Assembly (NCBI GenBank): GCA_002690805.1 | Contig: NZFW01000020.1 | Span: 220,777 to 262,255, forward strand | DNA length: 41,479 nucleotides | From: Flavobacteriaceae bacterium | GTDB taxonomy: Bacteria > Bacteroidota > Bacteroidia > Flavobacteriales > Flavobacteriaceae | Direction of reading: 5' to 3' | Shown: positions 31,650 through 41,479 of the stretch, one piece after another | Layout: each line of letters opens with the position of its first letter | Numbering within the stretch: position 1 is the first letter of the stretch | Made by a program: the position numbers and the translations under genes | Notes under the pieces: model-generated | The model's database searches: none | The model's input: only the letters and a program-made list of their open reading frames with translations | Told to the model about the DNA's origin: nothing

Positions 31650-33413
31650 ATGATACCTACTCGTCTTTTTGATTTTTTGGAGTTTGCAAAAAACAATCAT
31701 CCATCTGATAATGTTTTGAATACAAAATATAATGGAAAATGGCAATCCCTTTCAACACATGATTATGATTTAAAAGCTAATTACATAAGCTCTTCACTAA
31801 TTAGTATGGGTGTTAAACCGGGAGATAAAATTGCTATGATTTCTTCTACCAATAGATCCGAGTGGTCAATCATAGATATGGGATTATCTCAAATAGGAGC
31901 AATAAATGTTCCACTTTATCCAACAATTACCTCTAAAGATTATTTATATATCTTAAACCATTCTGAGTGCAAATATTGTTTTGTAAGCGATTTAGAAGTT
32001 TATGAAAAAGTTTTTGCTGTTAAAGAACAAGTTAAAAGTCTTAAAAACATTTATTCCTTTGATAATATTGACAAATGTTCAAACTGGAGAGAGTTAATTG
32101 ATTCAGGCCAAGAAAGTTTAGATATAAGTATTATTCAAGAACAAAAATCAAAAGTTAAACCTGAAGACTTAGCCACTATTATATATACATCGGGAACAAC
32201 TGGAACTCCCAAAGGAGTAATGTTGAGTCATAGTAATATAGTTTCAAACGTACTTTCAACCTCCAATAGGTTTCCTTTTGAAAAAGGAAAAGAAACTGCA
32301 CTTAGCTTTTTACCTATTTGTCATGTTTTCGAAAGGGTTGTTCTTTATAGTTACCTGTACAATGGTATAGATGTATATTTTGCAGAATCTTTGGAAACAA
32401 TAAGTGATAATTTAAAAGAAGTAAAACCAGAAATTATGACAGCAGTTCCTCGCCTATTAGAAAAAGTATATGATAAAATATACTCTAAAGGAGAAGAATT
32501 AGATGGACTAAAACAAAAACTATTTTACTGGGCTGTAGAGATTGCTCTTAAATATGAGCCATACAATAATAATGGAATACTATATTCTATAAAACTAGCT
32601 TTGGCCAAAAAACTTATTCTTTCAAAATGGCAAGAAGCACTTGGAGGCAATCTGAAACTTATTGCTTCAGGAAGTGCACCTCTCCAGGCCAGACTAGCAA
32701 GAGTATTTACAGCTGCCGGTATGACAATTGTTGAAGGTTATGGCTTAACTGAAACATCACCGGCAATTTCATTAAATGATATGAGAAATGGAGGTTTAAA
32801 GATTGGAACAGTTGGCAAATTAGTTGATGGAGTTGAAGTCAAAATAGCTGAAGACGGTGAAATCCTTTGTAAAGGGCCTAATGTAATGATGGGATATTAT
32901 AAAGAAGAAGAAAAAACAAAAGAAGTTATGTCAGGAGATTTTTTTCATACTGGGGACATAGGAATAATAGATTCAGATGGGTTTTTAAAAATAACCGATA
33001 GAAAAAAAGAAATGTTTAAAACATCCGGTGGAAAATATATTGCCCCAGCTGTTATTGAAGGAGAGATGAAACAATCATTATTTATTGAACAAATTATGGT
33101 TGTAGGTGAAAGTAAAAGAATGGCAGCAGCAATCATTCAACCAAATTTTGAATACATAGAAAACTGGATGAAAGAGAATAATATTCAAGAAAAAATTGGT
33201 GAAATTTATAGAAATGACAAATTAATAAATGAAATTCAAAAAGACATTGACATCCATAATGAAAAATTTGCGCAATGGGAAAAAATTAAAAAATTTGAAT
33301 TAACATCTGATCCATGGACTATTGAAAATGGATTATTAACTCCTACTATGAAGTTAAAAAGAAAAGCAATCAAATCAAAATATCAGCATTTGATAAATAA
33401 AATTTACACTTAA
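31650..33413 (+). CDS. Long-chain fatty acid--CoA ligase (FadD-like AMP-binding enzyme)
   Basis: The 587-residue enzyme would activate free fatty acids with ATP and CoA. It has the P-loop TSGTTGTPKG (about 180-189), YGLTETSP (364-371), the acyl-ligase hinge KITDRKKEMFKTSGGKYI (about 449-466), and a C-terminal lid. Length and the KMFKTSGGKY motif fit the long-chain ligase group. There is no membrane helix. It precedes the MarR gene by 118 bases and the acyl-CoA dehydrogenase gene, so it belongs to a fatty-acid use locus, though it does not seem to share the MarR promoter. Confidence 0.93.
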   Translation: MIPTRLFDFLEFAKNNHPSDNVLNTKYNGKWQSLSTHDYDLKANYISSSLISMGVKPGDKIAMISSTNRSEWSIIDMGLSQIGAINVPLYPTITSKDYLYILNHSECKYCFVSDLEVYEKVFAVKEQVKSLKNIYSFDNIDKCSNWRELIDSGQESLDISIIQEQKSKVKPEDLATIIYTSGTTGTPKGVMLSHSNIVSNVLSTSNRFPFEKGKETALSFLPICHVFERVVLYSYLYNGIDVYFAESLETISDNLKEVKPEIMTAVPRLLEKVYDKIYSKGEELDGLKQKLFYWAVEIALKYEPYNNNGILYSIKLALAKKLILSKWQEALGGNLKLIASGSAPLQARLARVFTAAGMTIVEGYGLTETSPAISLNDMRNGGLKIGTVGKLVDGVEVKIAEDGEILCKGPNVMMGYYKEEEKTKEVMSGDFFHTGDIGIIDSDGFLKITDRKKEMFKTSGGKYIAPAVIEGEMKQSLFIEQIMVVGESKRMAAAIIQPNFEYIENWMKENNIQEKIGEIYRNDKLINEIQKDIDIHNEKFAQWEKIKKFELTSDPWTIENGLLTPTMKLKRKAIKSKYQHLINKIYT

Positions 33414-33486
33414 AATTTTTTTGAAGTAATATATATTTTCTATAAAATTCTAATAGTTTATTTAAGCAGTAATAAAGAATAAATAT

Positions 33487-33506
33487 TTATTATGCACGCA
33501 TAATAA
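33487..33506. promoter_or_regulatory. Palindromic operator at the MarR promoter
   Basis: TTATTATGC (33487-33495), AC, GCATAATAA (33498-33506) is a perfect 9-bp inverted repeat with a 2-base spacer, a typical size for a MarR dimer site. A further TTATTAT half-site (33510-33516) pairs with ATAATAA (33500-33506). The palindrome covers the place where the -33 box would be (about 33490-33495) and the start of the spacer. Bound repressor would block the promoter. Confidence 0.7.
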
Positions 33507-33513
33507 TTTTTAT

Positions 33514-33521
33514 TATATTTG
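33514..33521 (+). promoter_or_regulatory. -7 box of the MarR-acyl-CoA dehydrogenase operon
   Basis: TATATTTG is an exact TAnnTTTG, 10 bases before the ATG at 33532. The -33 position about 20 bases above falls in the left arm of the palindrome and reads TATG rather than TTTG. Leader would be only a few bases long. Confidence 0.65.
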
Positions 33522-33531
33522 AATTTAATAA

Positions 33532-33960
33532 ATGGAAAAACAAAAAACTTTTGATTATGCTCTCAGATCAACCTGGCAAGGAGTAAGTAATATGTATAAC
33601 AAAGCAGCTGGAAAGTTTGATTCAACTATGGCTACCGGGTTTGTTCTTTTAAATATTGAACAAAATGGTACGCCATCAACATCTTTAGGGCCAAAAATGG
33701 GTATGGAAAACACAAGTCTATCAAGAATACTGAATACTCTTGAAAAAAGAAGTCTTATTGAGAGAAAACAAAACCCTAATGACGGAAGAAGTCGTTTAAT
33801 CCACCTTACAAAACTTGGATTAGAAAAAAGAGAGATTTCAAAAAAAATTGTTTTAGAATTTAATAAATCAGTAGCTGATCAGCTTAAAAAAGAGGAAATA
33901 AATATTTTTTTTAAAGTAATTAACTGTATTAATAAGCAAAGTCAAAAAATAAATCAATAA
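33532..33960 (+). CDS. MarR-family transcriptional regulator
   Basis: The 142-residue protein has the MarR winged helix: helix-turn-helix with LGPKMGMENTSLSRILNTLEK (about 52-72) and a wing with DGRSRLIHLT (84-93), flanked by dimerisation helices at both ends. MarR dimers usually repress their own gene and nearby genes and release DNA on binding a small ligand. The palindrome over its own promoter and the acyl-CoA dehydrogenase gene 9 bases downstream point to autorepression with control of fatty-acid use, and an acyl-CoA or fatty acid as the likely ligand. The ligand is inference. Confidence 0.9.
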   Translation: MEKQKTFDYALRSTWQGVSNMYNKAAGKFDSTMATGFVLLNIEQNGTPSTSLGPKMGMENTSLSRILNTLEKRSLIERKQNPNDGRSRLIHLTKLGLEKREISKKIVLEFNKSVADQLKKEEINIFFKVINCINKQSQKINQ

Positions 33961-33969
33961 ATCAAATTA

Positions 33970-35769
33970 ATGGTAATAGAAAATAAAAAAACACAGGGAG
34001 GTGGTTTTATAACAACAATAAATGACTCAACAAAGACAATTTTTACACCAGAAGATTTTTCTGAGGAACAAATAATGATGAAAGATGCTGTCAAAGAGTT
34101 CATTGAAAGAGAAGTATGGCCTCATAAAGAACGTTTTGAAAATAAGGATTATGGTTTCACAAAAGAAGTCATGGAAAAAGCAGGGAAGTTAGGATTTCTT
34201 GGTGTTTCTGTTCCTGAGGAATATGGTGGTCTTGGAATGGATTTTATTTCTACCATGTTAGTATGTGATTATATTTCAGCTGCATCAGGGTCATTATCTA
34301 CAGCTTTTGGTGCTCATACTGGCATAGGAACTCTTCCAATAACATTATATGGAACTAAAGAACAGAAACAAAAATATGTTCCCAATCTAGCCTCAGGAAA
34401 ATGGTTTGGATCTTATTGCCTTACTGAACCAGGTGCAGGATCTGATGCAAATTCAGGTAAAACCAAAGCCATTCTTTCTGAAGACAAAAAGAATTATTTG
34501 ATTTCTGGACAGAAAATGTGGATTTCAAATGCGGGATTTGCAAGTATATTTATTGTATTTGCTCGAATTGAGAATGATAAAAATATTACTGGTTTTATTG
34601 TTCCAGCTGATTATAATAATGGAATTATTCTTGGAGATGAAGAAAAAAAACTTGGTATTCATGCCTCGTCAACCAGACAAGTTTTTTTTAATAACACTAA
34701 GGTTCCTGTTGAAAATATGTTAGCTCAAAGAGGTGAAGGTTTTAAAATAGCCATGAATGCCCTTAATGCAGGAAGAATAAAACTTGGTGTTGCCTGTGTT
34801 GATGCTCAAAGAAGAATTATCAACGGATCAGTTAAATATGCAAATGAACGAATTCAATTCAAAACTCCAATTTCACAATTTGGTGCAATCAAAGAAAAAA
34901 TTGCAAAGATGTCTGTTGATTTATACGCAAGTGAATCAGGGAGCTATAGAGCGGCCTCTGACATTAAAGATCATATTGAATTTTTAAAAAGTGGAGGTAA
35001 GACAGACCAAGAAGCGGAATTAAAGGGGTTAGAGGAATATGCCATAGAATGTTCAATGATTAAAGTTTTTTGCTCAGAAGCTATGCAAAATTCTTCTGAT
35101 GAAGGGATTCAGATTTTTGGAGGTATGGGATTCTCAGCAGATACTCCAATGGAAGCAGCATGGAGAGATGCCCGTATTGGTAGAATTTACGAAGGAACTA
35201 ATGAAATTAACAGAATGGTTTCAGTTGGAATGCTCTTAAAAAAAGCTGCTAAAGGACATTTAGATTTAATGAATCCTGTTATGAAAGTAGTAGAAAATGC
35301 CAAGTCTAATAATTATGGTAAACTGTCTTCTGAATCTGAATTTGCCCAGGAAAAACTATTAGTTCAAAACATTAAGGATATCTTTTTATTGTTAACTGGA
35401 GCTGCTTTTCAAAAGTTTGGTTCAGAACTTGAAAACCATCAAATAGTTCTTCTTGGACTTTCGGATATTTTAATGCAGTCGTACTTTTCTGAATCAGTTT
35501 TATTAAGAACTATAAAAAATCATCAAAGATCTCACACAAACTTCTCAGAAACTCATAAAGACATGACTCAATTGTTCTTGTTTAATTCAGTTGAAAAAAT
35601 AAAAAATAAAGCAAATGAAATAGTTTTGAGTATTTCAAATGACAAGGACAAAGTTGGATTATTAAAACATATTGATCAAATGACTAGATATAAGGTTTAT
35701 CCAAATATTGTCGAGCTAAAAACGAAAATAGCAGATAAAGTCATTAAGGAAAATGAATACAAGCTATAA
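33970..35769 (+). CDS. Acyl-CoA dehydrogenase (FadE-like, ~600-residue Bacteroidota form)
   Basis: The enzyme would carry out the first step of beta-oxidation, using FAD. The 599-residue protein has the usual N-terminal helical domain with VPEEYGGLGMDF, FAD contact YCLTEPGAGSDANSG (about 154-168), WISNAGFASIF, and the catalytic-base region IYEGTNEI with Glu408. A C-terminal helical extension (about 440-599) is seen in the long Bacteroidota group. It follows the MarR gene by 9 bases and overlaps the next start by 1 base. Confidence 0.93.
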   Translation: MVIENKKTQGGGFITTINDSTKTIFTPEDFSEEQIMMKDAVKEFIEREVWPHKERFENKDYGFTKEVMEKAGKLGFLGVSVPEEYGGLGMDFISTMLVCDYISAASGSLSTAFGAHTGIGTLPITLYGTKEQKQKYVPNLASGKWFGSYCLTEPGAGSDANSGKTKAILSEDKKNYLISGQKMWISNAGFASIFIVFARIENDKNITGFIVPADYNNGIILGDEEKKLGIHASSTRQVFFNNTKVPVENMLAQRGEGFKIAMNALNAGRIKLGVACVDAQRRIINGSVKYANERIQFKTPISQFGAIKEKIAKMSVDLYASESGSYRAASDIKDHIEFLKSGGKTDQEAELKGLEEYAIECSMIKVFCSEAMQNSSDEGIQIFGGMGFSADTPMEAAWRDARIGRIYEGTNEINRMVSVGMLLKKAAKGHLDLMNPVMKVVENAKSNNYGKLSSESEFAQEKLLVQNIKDIFLLLTGAAFQKFGSELENHQIVLLGLSDILMQSYFSESVLLRTIKNHQRSHTNFSETHKDMTQLFLFNSVEKIKNKANEIVLSISNDKDKVGLLKHIDQMTRYKVYPNIVELKTKIADKVIKENEYKL

Positions 35770-36449
35770 TGACAAAATTTTGGGCTGTTTACATAATTAG
35801 AGTTGTTTCATTATATTTTTTGTCAAGTGTTATTGTTGCGGCTATTCTATACCCTGGAGGAAACATATTTGATCCAAATCAAATTGGTTATTCATTTACT
35901 AAAAACTATTTAAGTGATTTGGGTGGATTTATGAGTAGATCTGGAGAAATTAATTTTCTTTCCTCTTTTATTTTTAATACTTCAATGTTTTTATATCTAT
36001 TATCTGGAGTAGGTTTTTTATTCGTTCCTGAACTCTTTAAAAAAGAAAAAAAAATTTATTATTTAGCTTGGATAGGTAGTTTTTTCTTTTTCATTGCTTG
36101 TTTCTGTTTTGCGGGAGTTGGTTTAACTCCCCACGATTTATACCAAACACTACATGGGCATTTTGCCAAAAATGCATTTAGACTTTTAATTCCAGCATCA
36201 ATCTTTTACGTAATAGTATTATTTAAAAGTAATGTGAATAATAAATATACATTGGTCACTTTAGGATATTTATTTTTCACCACTGCTTACGTTATATATC
36301 AACTTTTGATTGAAGATGCAATGAAAAGTCCTGAAGCTTTAATGGAGTCTGTAACTATTCAGAAACTCATTGCTATAATAAGCACCATAAGTATTTTCTC
36401 ACTTACTTTTGCTTTTTCGTCGAAAATATCAAAGAATAATTCAATTTGA
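35769..36449 (+). CDS. DUF998-like multi-pass membrane protein
   Basis: The 226-residue protein has about six hydrophobic segments (about 8-27, 61-83, 95-117, 136-151, 158-178, 198-217). Between the first two lies YPGGNIFDPNQIGYSFTKNY followed by LSDLGG, which resembles the start of DUF998-type proteins. A conserved-looking LTPHDLYQTLHGHFAKNAFR stretch follows the third helix. Function is unknown. Its ATG shares one base with the stop of the acyl-CoA dehydrogenase gene, so translation is coupled and a link to the MarR operon is likely. Confidence 0.72.
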   Translation: MTKFWAVYIIRVVSLYFLSSVIVAAILYPGGNIFDPNQIGYSFTKNYLSDLGGFMSRSGEINFLSSFIFNTSMFLYLLSGVGFLFVPELFKKEKKIYYLAWIGSFFFFIACFCFAGVGLTPHDLYQTLHGHFAKNAFRLLIPASIFYVIVLFKSNVNNKYTLVTLGYLFFTTAYVIYQLLIEDAMKSPEALMESVTIQKLIAIISTISIFSLTFAFSSKISKNNSI

Positions 36450-36514: not shown

Positions 36515-37855
36515 ATGCGTCAATTTTTTCACATATACATTTTCTTAGCATGTAGTTTTTTATATTCTCAAAGCTCAAATGATTTTTATCAAATAATAAA
36601 TCAAACTAATGCTAGTAGAATTGAAAATGACATCAAAATCCTAGCTAATTTTGGCACAAGACACTCTCTAAGCGATACTATTTCTAATTCAAGAGGAATT
36701 GGAGCTGCTAGAAGATGGATTAAGTCCGAATTTGAAAAAATTTCTAAAAATTGTAATAATTGTTTAGAAGTTTTTTATCAAAAAAATTATTACACAGAGG
36801 ACGACGGACCAAGAATTGTAAAACCCGTGTGGATTAATAATGTTGTTGCTATTCAAAAAGGAAGAAAATTTCCAAATCGATTTATTATTATGAGTGGTGA
36901 TATTGACTCTAGAATATCTGATCCAAACAACTTCACTAGTGATTCTCCAGGGGCTAATGATAATGCATCTGGAATGGCAGGAACAATTGAAGCTGCTAGG
37001 ATTCTTTCTAAATATAATTTCGATAACAGCATTATCTACGTTGGACTCTCAGGAGAAGAACAGGGTCTTTTTGGAGGTAAAGGTCTTGCTAACTTCGCAA
37101 AAAAAAGAAAATGGGATATAATAGGTATACTTAACAATGATATGATTGGTAATATTGAAGGAGTTGACGGAGTTATAGACAATAGAACTTTTAGAATATT
37201 CTCAGAACCAACACCTCCTACTGAAACTGAGAATGAAAGAAATGCAAGAAGATTTTACGGAGGAGAAGTTGACGGTATTTCTAGACAGCTAGCTAGGTAT
37301 ATATATAAAAATGTAAAAAAATACATGCCTGAAATGAACCCACTTTTAATTTATCGCTTGGATAGATTTGGAAGAGGAGGGCATCATCGACCATTCAATG
37401 ATTTAGGTTATGCAGGAGTCAGAATAATGGAAGCACATGAAAATTATAATAGACAACACCAAGATATAAGAAATGAAAATGGCATAAGTTACGGTGACGT
37501 TATTAATGGTGTCAATTTTGATTATGCTGCCAAATTAACAGCCGTAAATGCAATTAACCTGGCAAGTATTGCATGGTCTCCTCCAACAGTAAAATCCTTA
37601 TCAATTGGAGGGGTTGTTGAACCTTCTGTTAAATTTAAATGGGAGGCAATAAATGATAAGTCAATTAAAGGTTATAAAATTTATTGGAGAGATACAACAA
37701 GTCCCTTTTGGGAAAAAAGTCGATTTGTTGGTAAATTATCTAAATATACTCTTAAAGGAATAGTGATTGATAATTTCTTATTTGGAATATCTACTGTTGG
37801 AGAAAATGGTTTAGAAAGTCCAGTAGTTTTCCCTAATAAGGTTTTTAGAGATTAG
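36515..37855 (+). CDS. Exported M28-family metallopeptidase with Fn3-like C-terminal domain
   Basis: The 446-residue protein has a signal peptide (about 1-19). The M28 domain (about 30-345) has GANDNASG (Asp149), SGEEQGLFG (Glu181/182), NNDMIGN (Asp209) and a candidate His in NRQHQD (His315), the usual metal and catalytic ligands. The first ligand, normally His in a G-H-x-D-S motif, is Asp129 here (GDIDSR). A C-terminal region (about 360-446) resembles a fibronectin type III-like domain (KWEAINDKSIKGYKIYWRD). I chose the ATG at 36515 over an upstream TTG at 36497. The end overlaps the sprF gene by 4 bases, convergent. Confidence 0.88.
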   Translation: MRQFFHIYIFLACSFLYSQSSNDFYQIINQTNASRIENDIKILANFGTRHSLSDTISNSRGIGAARRWIKSEFEKISKNCNNCLEVFYQKNYYTEDDGPRIVKPVWINNVVAIQKGRKFPNRFIIMSGDIDSRISDPNNFTSDSPGANDNASGMAGTIEAARILSKYNFDNSIIYVGLSGEEQGLFGGKGLANFAKKRKWDIIGILNNDMIGNIEGVDGVIDNRTFRIFSEPTPPTETENERNARRFYGGEVDGISRQLARYIYKNVKKYMPEMNPLLIYRLDRFGRGGHHRPFNDLGYAGVRIMEAHENYNRQHQDIRNENGISYGDVINGVNFDYAAKLTAVNAINLASIAWSPPTVKSLSIGGVVEPSVKFKWEAINDKSIKGYKIYWRDTTSPFWEKSRFVGKLSKYTLKGIVIDNFLFGISTVGENGLESPVVFPNKVFRD

Positions 37856-38868
37856 TAATAATTATCTATACTTAATCTTCTATAATCACCTCTTCTATTT
37901 CTTAAGTAAGGACTGAAATCAAAAGTTAAAAATACTTCAAAAGTACTTGGTGAATATGCTTTTGATGGATCTTTTCTTGATGGAAAATTATACAACGTAC
38001 CAAACTCAAAATTCTCATATGATAGGGCAACTGAAATACCCATATTTAACATAGAAAAACTTTCTACGCTCTTCATTGACTGATTTAAACCAATTGAAAA
38101 CTCACCAAATTGAAATTCTTCTGAAAGAAAAATATCAGTGCTATAAGATGATTGAGAAATATTAGTAAAAGCATAAAAAGTTGAATATCTAGGTAAAAAT
38201 CCTTGATCATATGGGTTTATATTAAATTCATATGCTCCTTGTATAGAAAAACGAATAGGCATTTTATATTCCTCATTTTCTTTATTGTAGGAAATATTTG
38301 GTTGATTAAGATGTTGAGCACTAAAACCAACTAGATATTTATCAGAATGAATAATAAATGAAGCACCTAAGTCAAGGTAATTAGCATTTCCAATTAAAGG
38401 AGCTAAGGGGTCAAGTGATTGAGCTTGAAGAAATCCAGATACAAGTGACAATTGATCCTCAAAAACTAACTTACTTGTGTCTAATTTGGAACCTCCCATT
38501 CCTAATGTTATTGAAGGCAAGAAAAAATCTTGATTATCTAATTGAATTTTATATATAAAGCTCAATGAGGGTTTTGTATATACCAAACCAGCATTATCCA
38601 TTGTATAGGAATACATGTCAACTCCAAGTGAAAAATAGTCTGAGTCAAACGAAATAGCTCCAAAAAAATATCTACTTTCAATTCCTTGATTAGAAACTAG
38701 GCCAATTGAATTATATAAAACACCTGTCTTGTTCATGTTATTTAATCCCATAAAACTAGGATTAGATTTCTGCATGAATCTTGAATGACTTACTATTAGA
38801 TCATCTTGAGCCGAAAGCTTAAAAACAATCAACATTATTAAAAATAATATGTAGTTTATTTTTTTCAT
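37852..38868 (-). CDS. PorP/SprF family type IX secretion membrane protein
   Basis: The 338-residue protein has a signal peptide (about 1-20, ending LSAQ), then alternating beta-strand segments of an outer-membrane barrel. N-terminal SHSRFMQKSNPSFMG is the PorP/SprF start, and GNANYLDLGASFIIHSDKYL a typical central stretch. SprF-type proteins partner with the adhesin encoded next to them, helping type IX export or anchoring. It starts 1 base after the SprB-like gene and is surely cotranscribed. Confidence 0.92.
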   Translation of the reverse strand: MKKINYILFLIMLIVFKLSAQDDLIVSHSRFMQKSNPSFMGLNNMNKTGVLYNSIGLVSNQGIESRYFFGAISFDSDYFSLGVDMYSYTMDNAGLVYTKPSLSFIYKIQLDNQDFFLPSITLGMGGSKLDTSKLVFEDQLSLVSGFLQAQSLDPLAPLIGNANYLDLGASFIIHSDKYLVGFSAQHLNQPNISYNKENEEYKMPIRFSIQGAYEFNINPYDQGFLPRYSTFYAFTNISQSSYSTDIFLSEEFQFGEFSIGLNQSMKSVESFSMLNMGISVALSYENFEFGTLYNFPSRKDPSKAYSPSTFEVFLTFDFSPYLRNRRGDYRRLSIDNYY

Positions 38869-38869
38869 A

Positions 38870-41479
38870 TCATCTTAAAAGTAAAAATGTTCCATCCCTA
38901 AATACTGATACATCATCCATGGTTTTTCCCTCAAGTGTATATATAAAGTATGGTGTAATTATATCTTTTGCATTATCAACAGAAAGATCTGGACCACACC
39001 AACCATTGAGTGTTATTGCCTCTTTTGTTGGATCTGCAGGAGGTACGCCAATTTCTTGATAAAGAAGTGCTCCTTGAGCATCATATACTCTAAATGTTAC
39101 TTCAACTAGTCCATTAAATAATGGTTTAAAACACTGATTGTATATATCTCCATTTGGTGTAAATACATTTGGCGATAAAACATTATATCCTTTTCCAACC
39201 TTAATAGTCTGTGTAAGTTCAGCAACACATCCAATATCATTATAAATTCTAAGGGTCACATAGTAAGTTCCTGCAATTGCATACTCATGTACAATTGGAT
39301 TTGGTTGATTTCTTTCTAATCTTTCAGATTGAGTACCATCACCAAAAATAAATTCAAATGAATCATATTCATCTTCGGACAAATCCCTAAATGTAATATC
39401 TTCTCTAGCTATATATTGTGATGATTGTTGGAAACTAATTGAAGTAAAATCAAATAAAGGATTACCAATTCCAACACTAATTTGTCTAGCTAAGCCACAT
39501 CCAGCATCATTTAAAACTTCTAATCGTGCAGATGTTTGAGGATCATCAATTTCTACTATATATTGATCTTCTCCAACAATTGTACTTTTTACTGGTTTTG
39601 AGTTGTAAAAAAATGATAAAGGACCTGTACCACCATCAAAAACATCTATATAAATAGTTCCAGCATTTCCTTGACATAAATCTGGACTTACTATAGGTCC
39701 TTCTCTTATTTGTAAAACATTTTCATTTGCAACATTTATCACACCTTGAATCTGATTATTAGAAATATTAGGCCCTGCACAATTTGACAAGCCTGCAGGA
39801 ATAATTGTATATCTATAATTGCCTTCAGCCAAATTATTTAAACTTGTAAAGCCTGTAAAATCAACAGAACCATTTGTTCCATCTAGAGGGGTCCAATTAG
39901 CAGTACTAACTGTAGTATTTAACATTTGTAAACGAGTAGTTTTAGTAACTATTTCTAATGAAATTGATGCTCCAGACTCTGTTTCAATTCTAATTTGAAC
40001 ATCTTGAAGTGTTCCACCATTATTTGCAGATTCAATAGAAGAACTAAATTGTGGGGAGCTATCTATTGCTTGAGCCATTTCCTTAACTACAGACTCTATA
40101 GGCTCACTTGGTGATTGAGTAGTATAAGTAAATGGTATACTATTTACTAAAACTGAGTAAACTTCCAAACTATCTGTATCAGCCTCGACACCTTGAAATA
40201 AAAGAATTGCCTCATCATCATCGATTTCAGCCCCCTGAACTTCCCATGTTATAACGTATGGAGTAGAATTTGATGAACCGTCTTGGTTATCAATAGATAT
40301 TGCTATAGTTCCGTCCTCTGCGTCAATTTGACAACTTACAGGTAAACTAGATGATCCTGAAGCATCAGCTACTCCATTGACTACTATCTCATTGAATTCA
40401 GAAACAAAATTAAATTGAGCAGTTGTATTTCCATTTTGATCCTGAATTGTACATCCATTTTTATCTTGAATGCTTAATTGATATGCTCCGGGTAAAGGTA
40501 AAAATGATACGTTATTACTTAAACTATTAAACACTGTTGAATTTGCAGTTGAATTTGGATCTGGATAATATGTCCATGTTAAGTTATAATATGGTTGTCC
40601 TGATACATCCAAAAATGGTGTTCCTCCTGTTATAAGGAATTGATCAAAAAATGGATCTTGATAACTTTCATAGCAAGCACTAATTGTAAAATCTGTTTGA
40701 CCAGAATAGTTAATTGGTGTAATATCAGCAATGGTAAAGTTTAAAAGAACCAAACATCCTGTTTGTGTATTTTCAACCTCTAAGACATAATTGTTAGGAT
40801 CAAGATTTTGAATCAATACTATATTAGTGGCTAAATTTGGTGTATAAAAGTTTCCAGATAAAACATTTGTAGCAAGTGAACTAGTTGGAGTTGAGGAAAT
40901 TGATGATCCATTTGAAACTGTACTTTGCAGAAGAGTCCCATTAAGAGTAAATTCGAATACGGTTGGATCTGGTATTAAATCAAACTGACCATTACCTAAT
41001 TTGAAACTAATTGATGCTGTGTTTTTGACACATGTGATTTCATCAAACTCTACATTTTGAATCTGTAATTTACTTGGGTCATCAATTTCAAACTCATAAC
41101 CACCTTGAGTTAAGTTTTCAACAAGCATACTTCCACAGCCTGAAGAATCAGTAACCACACCTCGATAATATCCTATATTTAATCCTGTAAGCACTTCAAA
41201 TCCTGCTGTTCCAGGCACTTCATTCCAAACTGTTTGTGCAGTTACAGAAATCGGAGATAAATTCATTGTTAAACCATAAACTGGTGTAATTGAAACAGCT
41301 TGAGCAGAATTAATAATTTGAGACTTAACAGATATACTTGAACCAATCAAAAATGCATCTAATGACGGATCACTATTAATTATAGTTGCTAAGTCAGATG
41401 CGATGTCTAAAATAGTTGTACTGTTGGTTATAACAATTGAAGAATTAAATGTTGTTCCGTTTATTATAACTCCAAGTGT
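38870..41479 (-). CDS. SprB-like gliding-motility adhesin with T9SS type B C-terminal domain, N-terminus cut by the window edge
   Basis: The frame is open to the right edge without a stop, so at least 869 residues are seen and the N-terminus is missing. SprB-like repeats are visible as cysteine-started blocks (ITCVKNTASISFKLGNG, VSCQIDAEDGTIAISIDN) ending in forms like GAYQLSIQDKNGC. A PKD-like domain has FIFGDGTQSE and YYVTLRIYNDIGC. The C-terminus, LSPNVFTPNGDIYNQCF, then FRVYDAQGALLYQ, then NGWCGPD, is the gliding motility-associated (CHU_C, T9SS type B) sorting region. An odd second module occurs twice, near the right edge and near 39950-40162. sprF follows by 1 base. It is a surface protein for adhesion or gliding. 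Confidence 0.9.
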   Translation of the reverse strand, partial: TLGVIINGTTFNSSIVITNSTTILDIASDLATIINSDPSLDAFLIGSSISVKSQIINSAQAVSITPVYGLTMNLSPISVTAQTVWNEVPGTAGFEVLTGLNIGYYRGVVTDSSGCGSMLVENLTQGGYEFEIDDPSKLQIQNVEFDEITCVKNTASISFKLGNGQFDLIPDPTVFEFTLNGTLLQSTVSNGSSISSTPTSSLATNVLSGNFYTPNLATNIVLIQNLDPNNYVLEVENTQTGCLVLLNFTIADITPINYSGQTDFTISACYESYQDPFFDQFLITGGTPFLDVSGQPYYNLTWTYYPDPNSTANSTVFNSLSNNVSFLPLPGAYQLSIQDKNGCTIQDQNGNTTAQFNFVSEFNEIVVNGVADASGSSSLPVSCQIDAEDGTIAISIDNQDGSSNSTPYVITWEVQGAEIDDDEAILLFQGVEADTDSLEVYSVLVNSIPFTYTTQSPSEPIESVVKEMAQAIDSSPQFSSSIESANNGGTLQDVQIRIETESGASISLEIVTKTTRLQMLNTTVSTANWTPLDGTNGSVDFTGFTSLNNLAEGNYRYTIIPAGLSNCAGPNISNNQIQGVINVANENVLQIREGPIVSPDLCQGNAGTIYIDVFDGGTGPLSFFYNSKPVKSTIVGEDQYIVEIDDPQTSARLEVLNDAGCGLARQISVGIGNPLFDFTSISFQQSSQYIAREDITFRDLSEDEYDSFEFIFGDGTQSERLERNQPNPIVHEYAIAGTYYVTLRIYNDIGCVAELTQTIKVGKGYNVLSPNVFTPNGDIYNQCFKPLFNGLVEVTFRVYDAQGALLYQEIGVPPADPTKEAITLNGWCGPDLSVDNAKDIITPYFIYTLEGKTMDDVSVFRDGTFLLLR
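39950..40162 (-). repeat. Second copy of a repeated protein module in the SprB-like adhesin
   Basis: Coding for YSVLVNSIPFTYTTQ, VVKEMAQAIDSSPQF and VQIRIETESG, this segment follows the same pattern as the first module at 41276-41479: a strand-rich V-x-V/I-N-x-x-x-F start, a helix ending in A-x-x-I-N/D-S-x-P, then a strand. Match is by pattern, not a measured alignment. Confidence 0.5.
41276..41479 (-). repeat. First copy of the same protein module in the SprB-like adhesin
   Basis: Codes for GVIINGTTFNSSIVITN, ILDIASDLATIINSDPSL and ISVKSQIINSAQAVSITP. It may begin beyond the edge. The V-I-I-N-G-x-x-F start, central helix with A-x-I-I-N-S-D-P, and the final strand match the second copy. Confidence 0.5.

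Follow-up and report, generated by a model that had tools for sequence, protein, structure and literature searches.

A conserved palindrome over the promoter of a MarR–acyl-CoA dehydrogenase operon in Flavobacteriaceae: a candidate autoregulatory operator and, in relatives, a candidate beta-oxidation regulon

Organisation of the MarR locus

The window, by which we mean the whole 41,479-nucleotide stretch of Flavobacteriaceae DNA analysed here, contains a gene for a MarR-family regulator, with an acyl-CoA ligase gene before it and an acyl-CoA dehydrogenase gene directly after it. The features discussed below are the following.

31650-33413, + strand: acyl-CoA ligase gene, FadD type (Pfam AMP-binding; a conserved neighbour by gene order)
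33486-33507, no strand: candidate MarR operator, 22-bp core TTTATTATGCACGCATAATAAT, family consensus TTTATTATGCATGCATAATAAA (palindrome, ortholog conservation, sites in relatives)
33510-33516, + strand: TTATTAT, read as an extra half-site in the first-pass annotation (overlaps the -7 box; half-site status unsupported)
33514-33521, + strand: putative Bacteroidota -7 promoter box TATATTTG (sequence; TAnnTTT conserved in the loci; sigma-A consensus TAnnTTTG according to PMC9723704)
33532-33960, + strand: MarR-family regulator gene, 142 aa, protein P0001 (Pfam MarR; predicted fold)
33970-35769, + strand: acyl-CoA dehydrogenase gene, FadE type, 599 aa, protein P0002 (NCBIfam NF058590; Pfam)
35769-36449, + strand: gene for a 226-aa protein, weakly DUF998-like (start overlaps the dehydrogenase stop; common to loci L033, L034 and L036)

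The regulator P0001 matches the MarR domain PF01047 with 43.4 bits (cut-off 24.6). Its AlphaFold2 model, with a mean pLDDT of 89.5 and a pTM of 0.75, has the MarR fold, and its best-ranked PDB matches are titled as MarR-family proteins. The dehydrogenase P0002 scores 673.1 bits against the FadE model NF058590 (cut-off 600). The gap between these two genes is 9 nt. The 226-aa protein has a DUF998 score of 21.4 bits, below the cut-off of 30, and its gene probably belongs to the same operon, since its start overlaps the stop of the dehydrogenase gene.

The order of the genes is conserved. Loci L037, L044 and L056, for example, read ligase, operator, MarR, FadJ, FadI and dehydrogenase, and in one set of single-contig genomes FadJ follows MarR at all of the MarR loci. 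The window and many marine loci lack FadJ and FadI between MarR and the dehydrogenase. The joint control of MarR and acyl-CoA dehydrogenase that was proposed from the window sequence fits both the 9-nt gap and this gene order. With a single site in the window at up to 3 mismatches, the ligase gene there lacks an operator of its own.

The palindrome and the promoter

Positions 33487-33506 form a perfect 9+2+9 inverted repeat, TTATTATGCACGCATAATAA, which reads TTATTATGC-AC-GCATAATAA. It ends 7 nt ahead of the -7 box TATATTTG and 25 nt ahead of the MarR ATG at 33532, and the first-pass annotation was therefore correct in describing a perfect 9-bp inverted repeat with a 2-base spacer by this promoter. 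Most relatives have GCATGC at the centre, so that the palindrome is uninterrupted there and the spacer of two bases seen in the window is a local variant. The palindrome is the sole match across the window, even when up to 3 mismatches are allowed.

Inverted repeats of this kind (9-bp arms, a spacer of 0-2, at least two G/C per arm) were counted in the window, which has a G+C content of 30%, and in ten Markov shuffles of it. There are 3 in the window and 0-4 per shuffle, and the palindrome taken alone is thus no rarer than chance expects within the window. Its significance comes from its conservation across relatives and not from window statistics.

Conservation upstream of MarR orthologs

Matches to the MarR protein at E ≤ 1e-15 were obtained in 188 of the 199 family genomes, a count that includes the window's own. 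Upstream regions were compared at 55 loci, comprising the 30 best family matches and 26 further loci, minus L004, which lies on the same contig as L033; these are the closest relatives and not a random sample. A 22-mer matching TTTATTATGCATGCATAATAAA, a consensus drawn from these same loci, at 18 or more of its 22 positions is found upstream of MarR in 45 of the 55, compared to 2 of 1100 shuffled upstream regions. In L048 it is located 170 nt upstream of the MarR match. The MarR proteins of the 25 loci L033-L057 are 53-80% identical to that of the window.

Ten loci fall below 18 of 22 (L024, L029, L058, L050-L055 and L057). Seven of them, L050-L055 and L057, have a recognisable variant, in which the operator is changed and lengthened around ATTATTCAAGAATAATATTCTTGCATAAT and the promoter-side GCATAAT is retained. 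The palindrome, for which the first-pass annotation had proposed to look upstream of orthologous MarR genes, is accordingly present at most of them. Like the operator, the recognition helix (TSLSR.L) hardly varies among the orthologs. An altered recognition helix was considered as the cause of the ATTATTCAAGAATAATATTCTTGCATAAT variant and rejected, no change being seen in the helix at L050-L055 and L057. The variant could be two overlapping sites 13 bp apart.

Some promoters carry operators in tandem. By reading, two or three copies are present at one promoter in L005, L006, L024, L029, L058, G046 and G151. L006 has three copies with a spacing of 14 bp (G178:C15:9444-9491), and L058, which has a Bacteroidales MarR of 42% identity, has two.

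The position of the operator relative to the promoter is also well preserved. A TAnnTTT box lies 3-9 nt past the 22-mer in 52 of the 55 loci (6 or 7 nt in 44), and the distance from the operator centre to the box is 16-18 bp in 48. TTATTAT, which the first-pass annotation took for a further half-site, follows the operator in 14 of the 55, among them the window and three near relatives. It lies there inside TTATTATATTTG, that is, in the -7 box, and only one of the 55 has the full half-site TTATTATGC behind the operator when one mismatch is allowed. We therefore reject TTATTAT as an additional half-site and assign it to the -7 box.

A palindrome that lies over the regulator's own promoter and is kept in its orthologs is what would be expected of a MarR autoregulatory operator. 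On these sequence comparisons, the palindrome is very probably a binding site of the adjacent MarR protein.

Further sites in relatives

Genomes were searched with TTAYTATGCRYGCATARTAA, allowing up to 2 mismatches, with the reversed sequence as a control. All of the 29 single-contig genomes of the family, which were picked for being a single contig and not for score, contain 3-6 sites each; the control gives none in 28 and one in the remaining genome. At least 24 of the 29 have a site just ahead of MarR: its distance to the MarR match is 20-96 nt in all 16 genomes for which both coordinates are listed, and such a site is also present in G143, G157 and six more.

In 17 of the 29 genomes, the sites were read by their place. 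This gave 58 regions with 59 sites, namely those other than the site at MarR, together with the complete set of four in G143, which includes one at MarR. For each of the 59, a gene is predicted to start no more than 160 nt away on one side (found by tblastn for L100), and in 5 cases the first 49-70 nt of the ORF call overlap the site. Targets were assigned by clustering, with one representative per cluster scanned in Pfam.

The most constant target is etfB, which is fronted by a site in all 17 genomes (16 by clustering and G078 by tblastn). It is usually divergent from a gene resembling PDH-E1-beta (pdhB-like), which lies within 301 nt in 16 of the 17. Other genes are found behind a site more variably: an NMO-like flavoprotein (7 genomes of 17), a ketoacyl-synthase-III-like gene (6), a thioesterase (5), FadL (3), a gene that we take to be M3-peptidase-like (3), an SDR (2), an OYE-type reductase, presumably dienoyl-CoA-reductase-like (1), and a second acyl-CoA dehydrogenase-like gene (1; L133, 36% identity). 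The remaining sites are next to genes without an evident lipid link, among them genes resembling those for TonB-dependent receptors, RNase HII and pyruvate carboxylase, and these sites may include chance matches or other functions.

The operator also stands upstream of the divergent pyruvate-dehydrogenase-E1-beta-like gene, for example in L105. Its position between etfB and the pdhB-like gene suggests cross-talk of pyruvate and fatty-acid oxidation.

The wider distribution was sampled with a draw of 296 genomes from the phylum. At 1 mismatch, 26 of them have sites. The family contributes 20 of its 30 genomes, a second family of the class 5 of 7, and the 259 others a single one; at this stringency, 10 genomes of the family are thus without a site. 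In 13 further family genomes the best site is at etfB in 8, at MarR in 3, at a ligase gene in one and at no reference gene in one. In the other family of the class, five loci were read, giving thiolase twice, acyl-CoA dehydrogenase once and no reference gene twice; Pfam was used at L185 and L189. L179 (G482) differs from the window in that its best site precedes the FadD-type ligase gene itself, at a distance of about 100 nt.

The window's own genome and genus

The window's own genome (G000) is 1.38 Mb long and 74% complete. The exact site is unique in it. Four further matches, the surroundings of which were read, are found at 2 mismatches, against four for the control, and one match at 3 mismatches, with equally many for the control. 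Additional operator sites in this genome were consequently rejected, the weaker matches being at control level. The genome-wide search proposed in the first-pass annotation, which was to look for hits upstream of beta-oxidation genes, therefore succeeds in relatives, where the same site is present at unlinked etfB, FadL and other beta-oxidation or lipid genes, and fails in the genome from which the window comes.

The same is seen in the genus. Exactly one site, by reading always before MarR, is present in 6 of the 7 genomes, the seventh being 68% complete. All seven have etfB, and the best match in its upstream region is 12-14 of 22 in six of them and 16 in one (L156, which does not have the GCAT core). 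Four separate fadJ genes have best matches of 13-14 of 22. Shuffled MarR upstream regions mostly score 12-15 of 22, and an operator at etfB or at a separate fadJ is for this reason rejected in this genus.

FadJ occurs in 4 of the 7 genomes, apart from MarR and with no operator. It was not found in the window's own genome, in G203 (68% complete) or in G052 (90%). The ligase and the acyl-CoA dehydrogenase are retained in G000 and G052. In this genus of small genomes, the regulon thus appears to be reduced to a single autoregulated operon. Some members may be without the classical FadJ/FadI steps, but since the genomes are incomplete, we make no firm claim on a loss of FadJ and FadI.

Proposed mechanism and alternatives

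The explanation that we strongly favour is that the palindrome is a MarR operator, which autorepresses the MarR–acyl-CoA dehydrogenase operon and in relatives also governs a beta-oxidation regulon. A MarR dimer would bind the two ATTATGC half-sites of the operator. With the -7 box taken as -12 to -5 and the sigma-A consensus as TAnnTTTG (PMC9723704), the operator centre at MarR is near -29, and the operator lies over the -33 region. The bound dimer would cover this region and block RNA polymerase at the TATATTTG promoter, and the operon of MarR, the dehydrogenase and, probably, the DUF998-like gene would be autorepressed. We infer steric repression from the position of the operator and from the usual behaviour of the MarR family (PMC5487221). 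A fatty-acid-derived signal, perhaps acyl-CoA made by the ligase encoded upstream, would release it. Acyl-CoA is a plausible ligand, given that the ligase gene is usually found next door and that MarR proteins of the CouR type bind CoA thioesters (PMC5487221).

Most members of the family would use this protein and operator to run a dispersed beta-oxidation regulon, made up of the fadJ-fadI-acyl-CoA dehydrogenase operon and etfB, and variably of FadL, a thioesterase and reductases. In the small-genome genus, it would have shrunk to the lone autoregulated operon. In Flavobacterium psychrophilum, beta-oxidation genes are highly up-regulated by mucus and plasma (PMC9723704), which fits an inducible system; the paper reports this up-regulation without a named regulator, and its main text does not mention MarR.

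The geometry at etfB is different. The distance from the operator centre to the -7 box is 25-29 bp in 15 of 16 cases (for example L099:1958-1977 and L103:1933-1952), which places the centre near -40, about one helical turn (about 10 bp) further upstream than at MarR. Of the 8 sites at the NMO-like gene, 6 have a spacing of 14-19 bp. A centre at -40 corresponds to a class-II activator position. The operator position at etfB therefore allows either activation or repression, and MarR could be a dual regulator, which represses its own operon from a centre at about -29 and activates etfB from one at about -40. The consistent difference in spacing (16-18 bp at 48 of 55 MarR loci against 25-29 bp at etfB) speaks for this, as does the etfB box, which is often TAnnTTCG. 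On the other hand, a 22-bp site centred at -40 reaches to about -30 and could still block contact at -33, characterised MarR proteins are mostly repressors (PMC5487221), and the positions themselves assume a box at -12 to -5 (PMC9723704). On balance, we regard a dual mode as rather unlikely.

An extended form of the same idea would make this MarR a general regulator of fatty-acid oxidation in Flavobacteriaceae, a job done in E. coli by FadR. The protein would repress where the spacing is about 14-19 bp, as at its own fadJ-fadI-dehydrogenase operon and at the NMO-like gene, and activate etfB from one turn upstream, and small-genome marine lineages would have kept only the autoregulatory site as their beta-oxidation was reduced or uncoupled. 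We find this picture doubtful as a whole.

It could also be that another regulator binds the site and that MarR is just one of its targets. This would account for G138, a genome of 99% completeness in 130 contigs, which has five sites, one of them at etfB, and no MarR match at E 0.001. There are two more site-bearing genomes with no detected MarR: G015 (84% complete), which has one site and no MarR match, and G170, which has two sites and whose MarR gene is interrupted by a contig end. Against this, the site lies at a fixed distance before MarR in most of the orthologs read, and 8 of the 11 family genomes with no detected MarR are also without sites. Conversely, 32 of the 34 small MarR-positive genomes have 1-5 sites; the other two, G065 and G185, have MarR and no site at 2 mismatches, and G185 shows two near-sites at its locus L005. 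Autoregulation from palindromic sites is moreover usual for such factors (PMC5487221). A different regulator is in our opinion improbable.

The repeat lies 73 nt past the stop of the ligase gene and has a run of T behind it, as would suit an RNA hairpin or intrinsic terminator belonging to that gene. The same sequence, however, occurs between the divergent etfB and pdhB-like genes, where no listed gene ends, and its position with respect to the -7 box is fixed. The sites between divergent genes make a terminator scarcely credible, and we reject it. That the repeat is a chance palindrome in AT-rich DNA, which the window alone would permit, is refuted by its conservation at MarR and by the further sites in relatives.

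Comparison with known regulators

An autoregulatory MarR operator is of a known kind. MarR, MexR, MepR, SlyA, PcaV and CouR, like the MarR protein of the window, have a palindrome at their own promoter. The P0001 model superimposes on two of them in complex with DNA, MepR (4lln; Z 17.0, rmsd 1.6, 134 residues aligned, 22% identity) and SlyA (3q5f; Z 16.6, rmsd 2.1, 139 aligned, 19% identity), which are among the top matches and count as tied, their scores being within 1 of each other. CouR (5cyv) has a similar MarR fold (TM 0.79, 21% identity). What differs from these autoregulatory relatives is the operator, built around ATTATGCATGCATAAT, and the dispersed beta-oxidation regulon. CouR and FerC control catabolic operons that are induced by CoA thioesters (PMC5487221).

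FabT resembles the present protein in belonging to the MarR family, in its link to lipid metabolism and in being encoded by the first gene of a regulated operon (PMC13046290), and its structure (6jbx) matches the model with Z 15.6 and rmsd 2.4 over 139 residues. However, P0001 scores only 20.7 bits against the NCBIfam FabT model (cut-off 200), and FabT regulates fatty-acid synthesis, whereas the targets here are degradation genes.

In other phyla, fatty-acid degradation is regulated by FadR, PsrA and FadP, which belong to other protein families. They do a similar job, in that they control a scattered beta-oxidation regulon; here the protein is a MarR, with an unrelated operator. The full-text literature searched, which mostly excludes subscription journals, yielded no paper whose title or opening of the abstract describes such a regulator in Bacteroidota, nor any description of the family-wide beta-oxidation regulon.

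The regulator is a candidate on/off switch for fatty-acid use in Flavobacteriaceae. With a 22-bp operator consensus and a target list at hand, the control of fatty-acid use becomes directly testable. Two concrete questions arise, one from the 10-bp shift that separates the promoter classes and the other from the reduced regulon of the small-genome genus.

Elsewhere in the window, positions 37852-41350 on the - strand contain a PorP/SprF-like gene and a gene for a large PKD-domain protein, which we take to be a type IX secretion pair.
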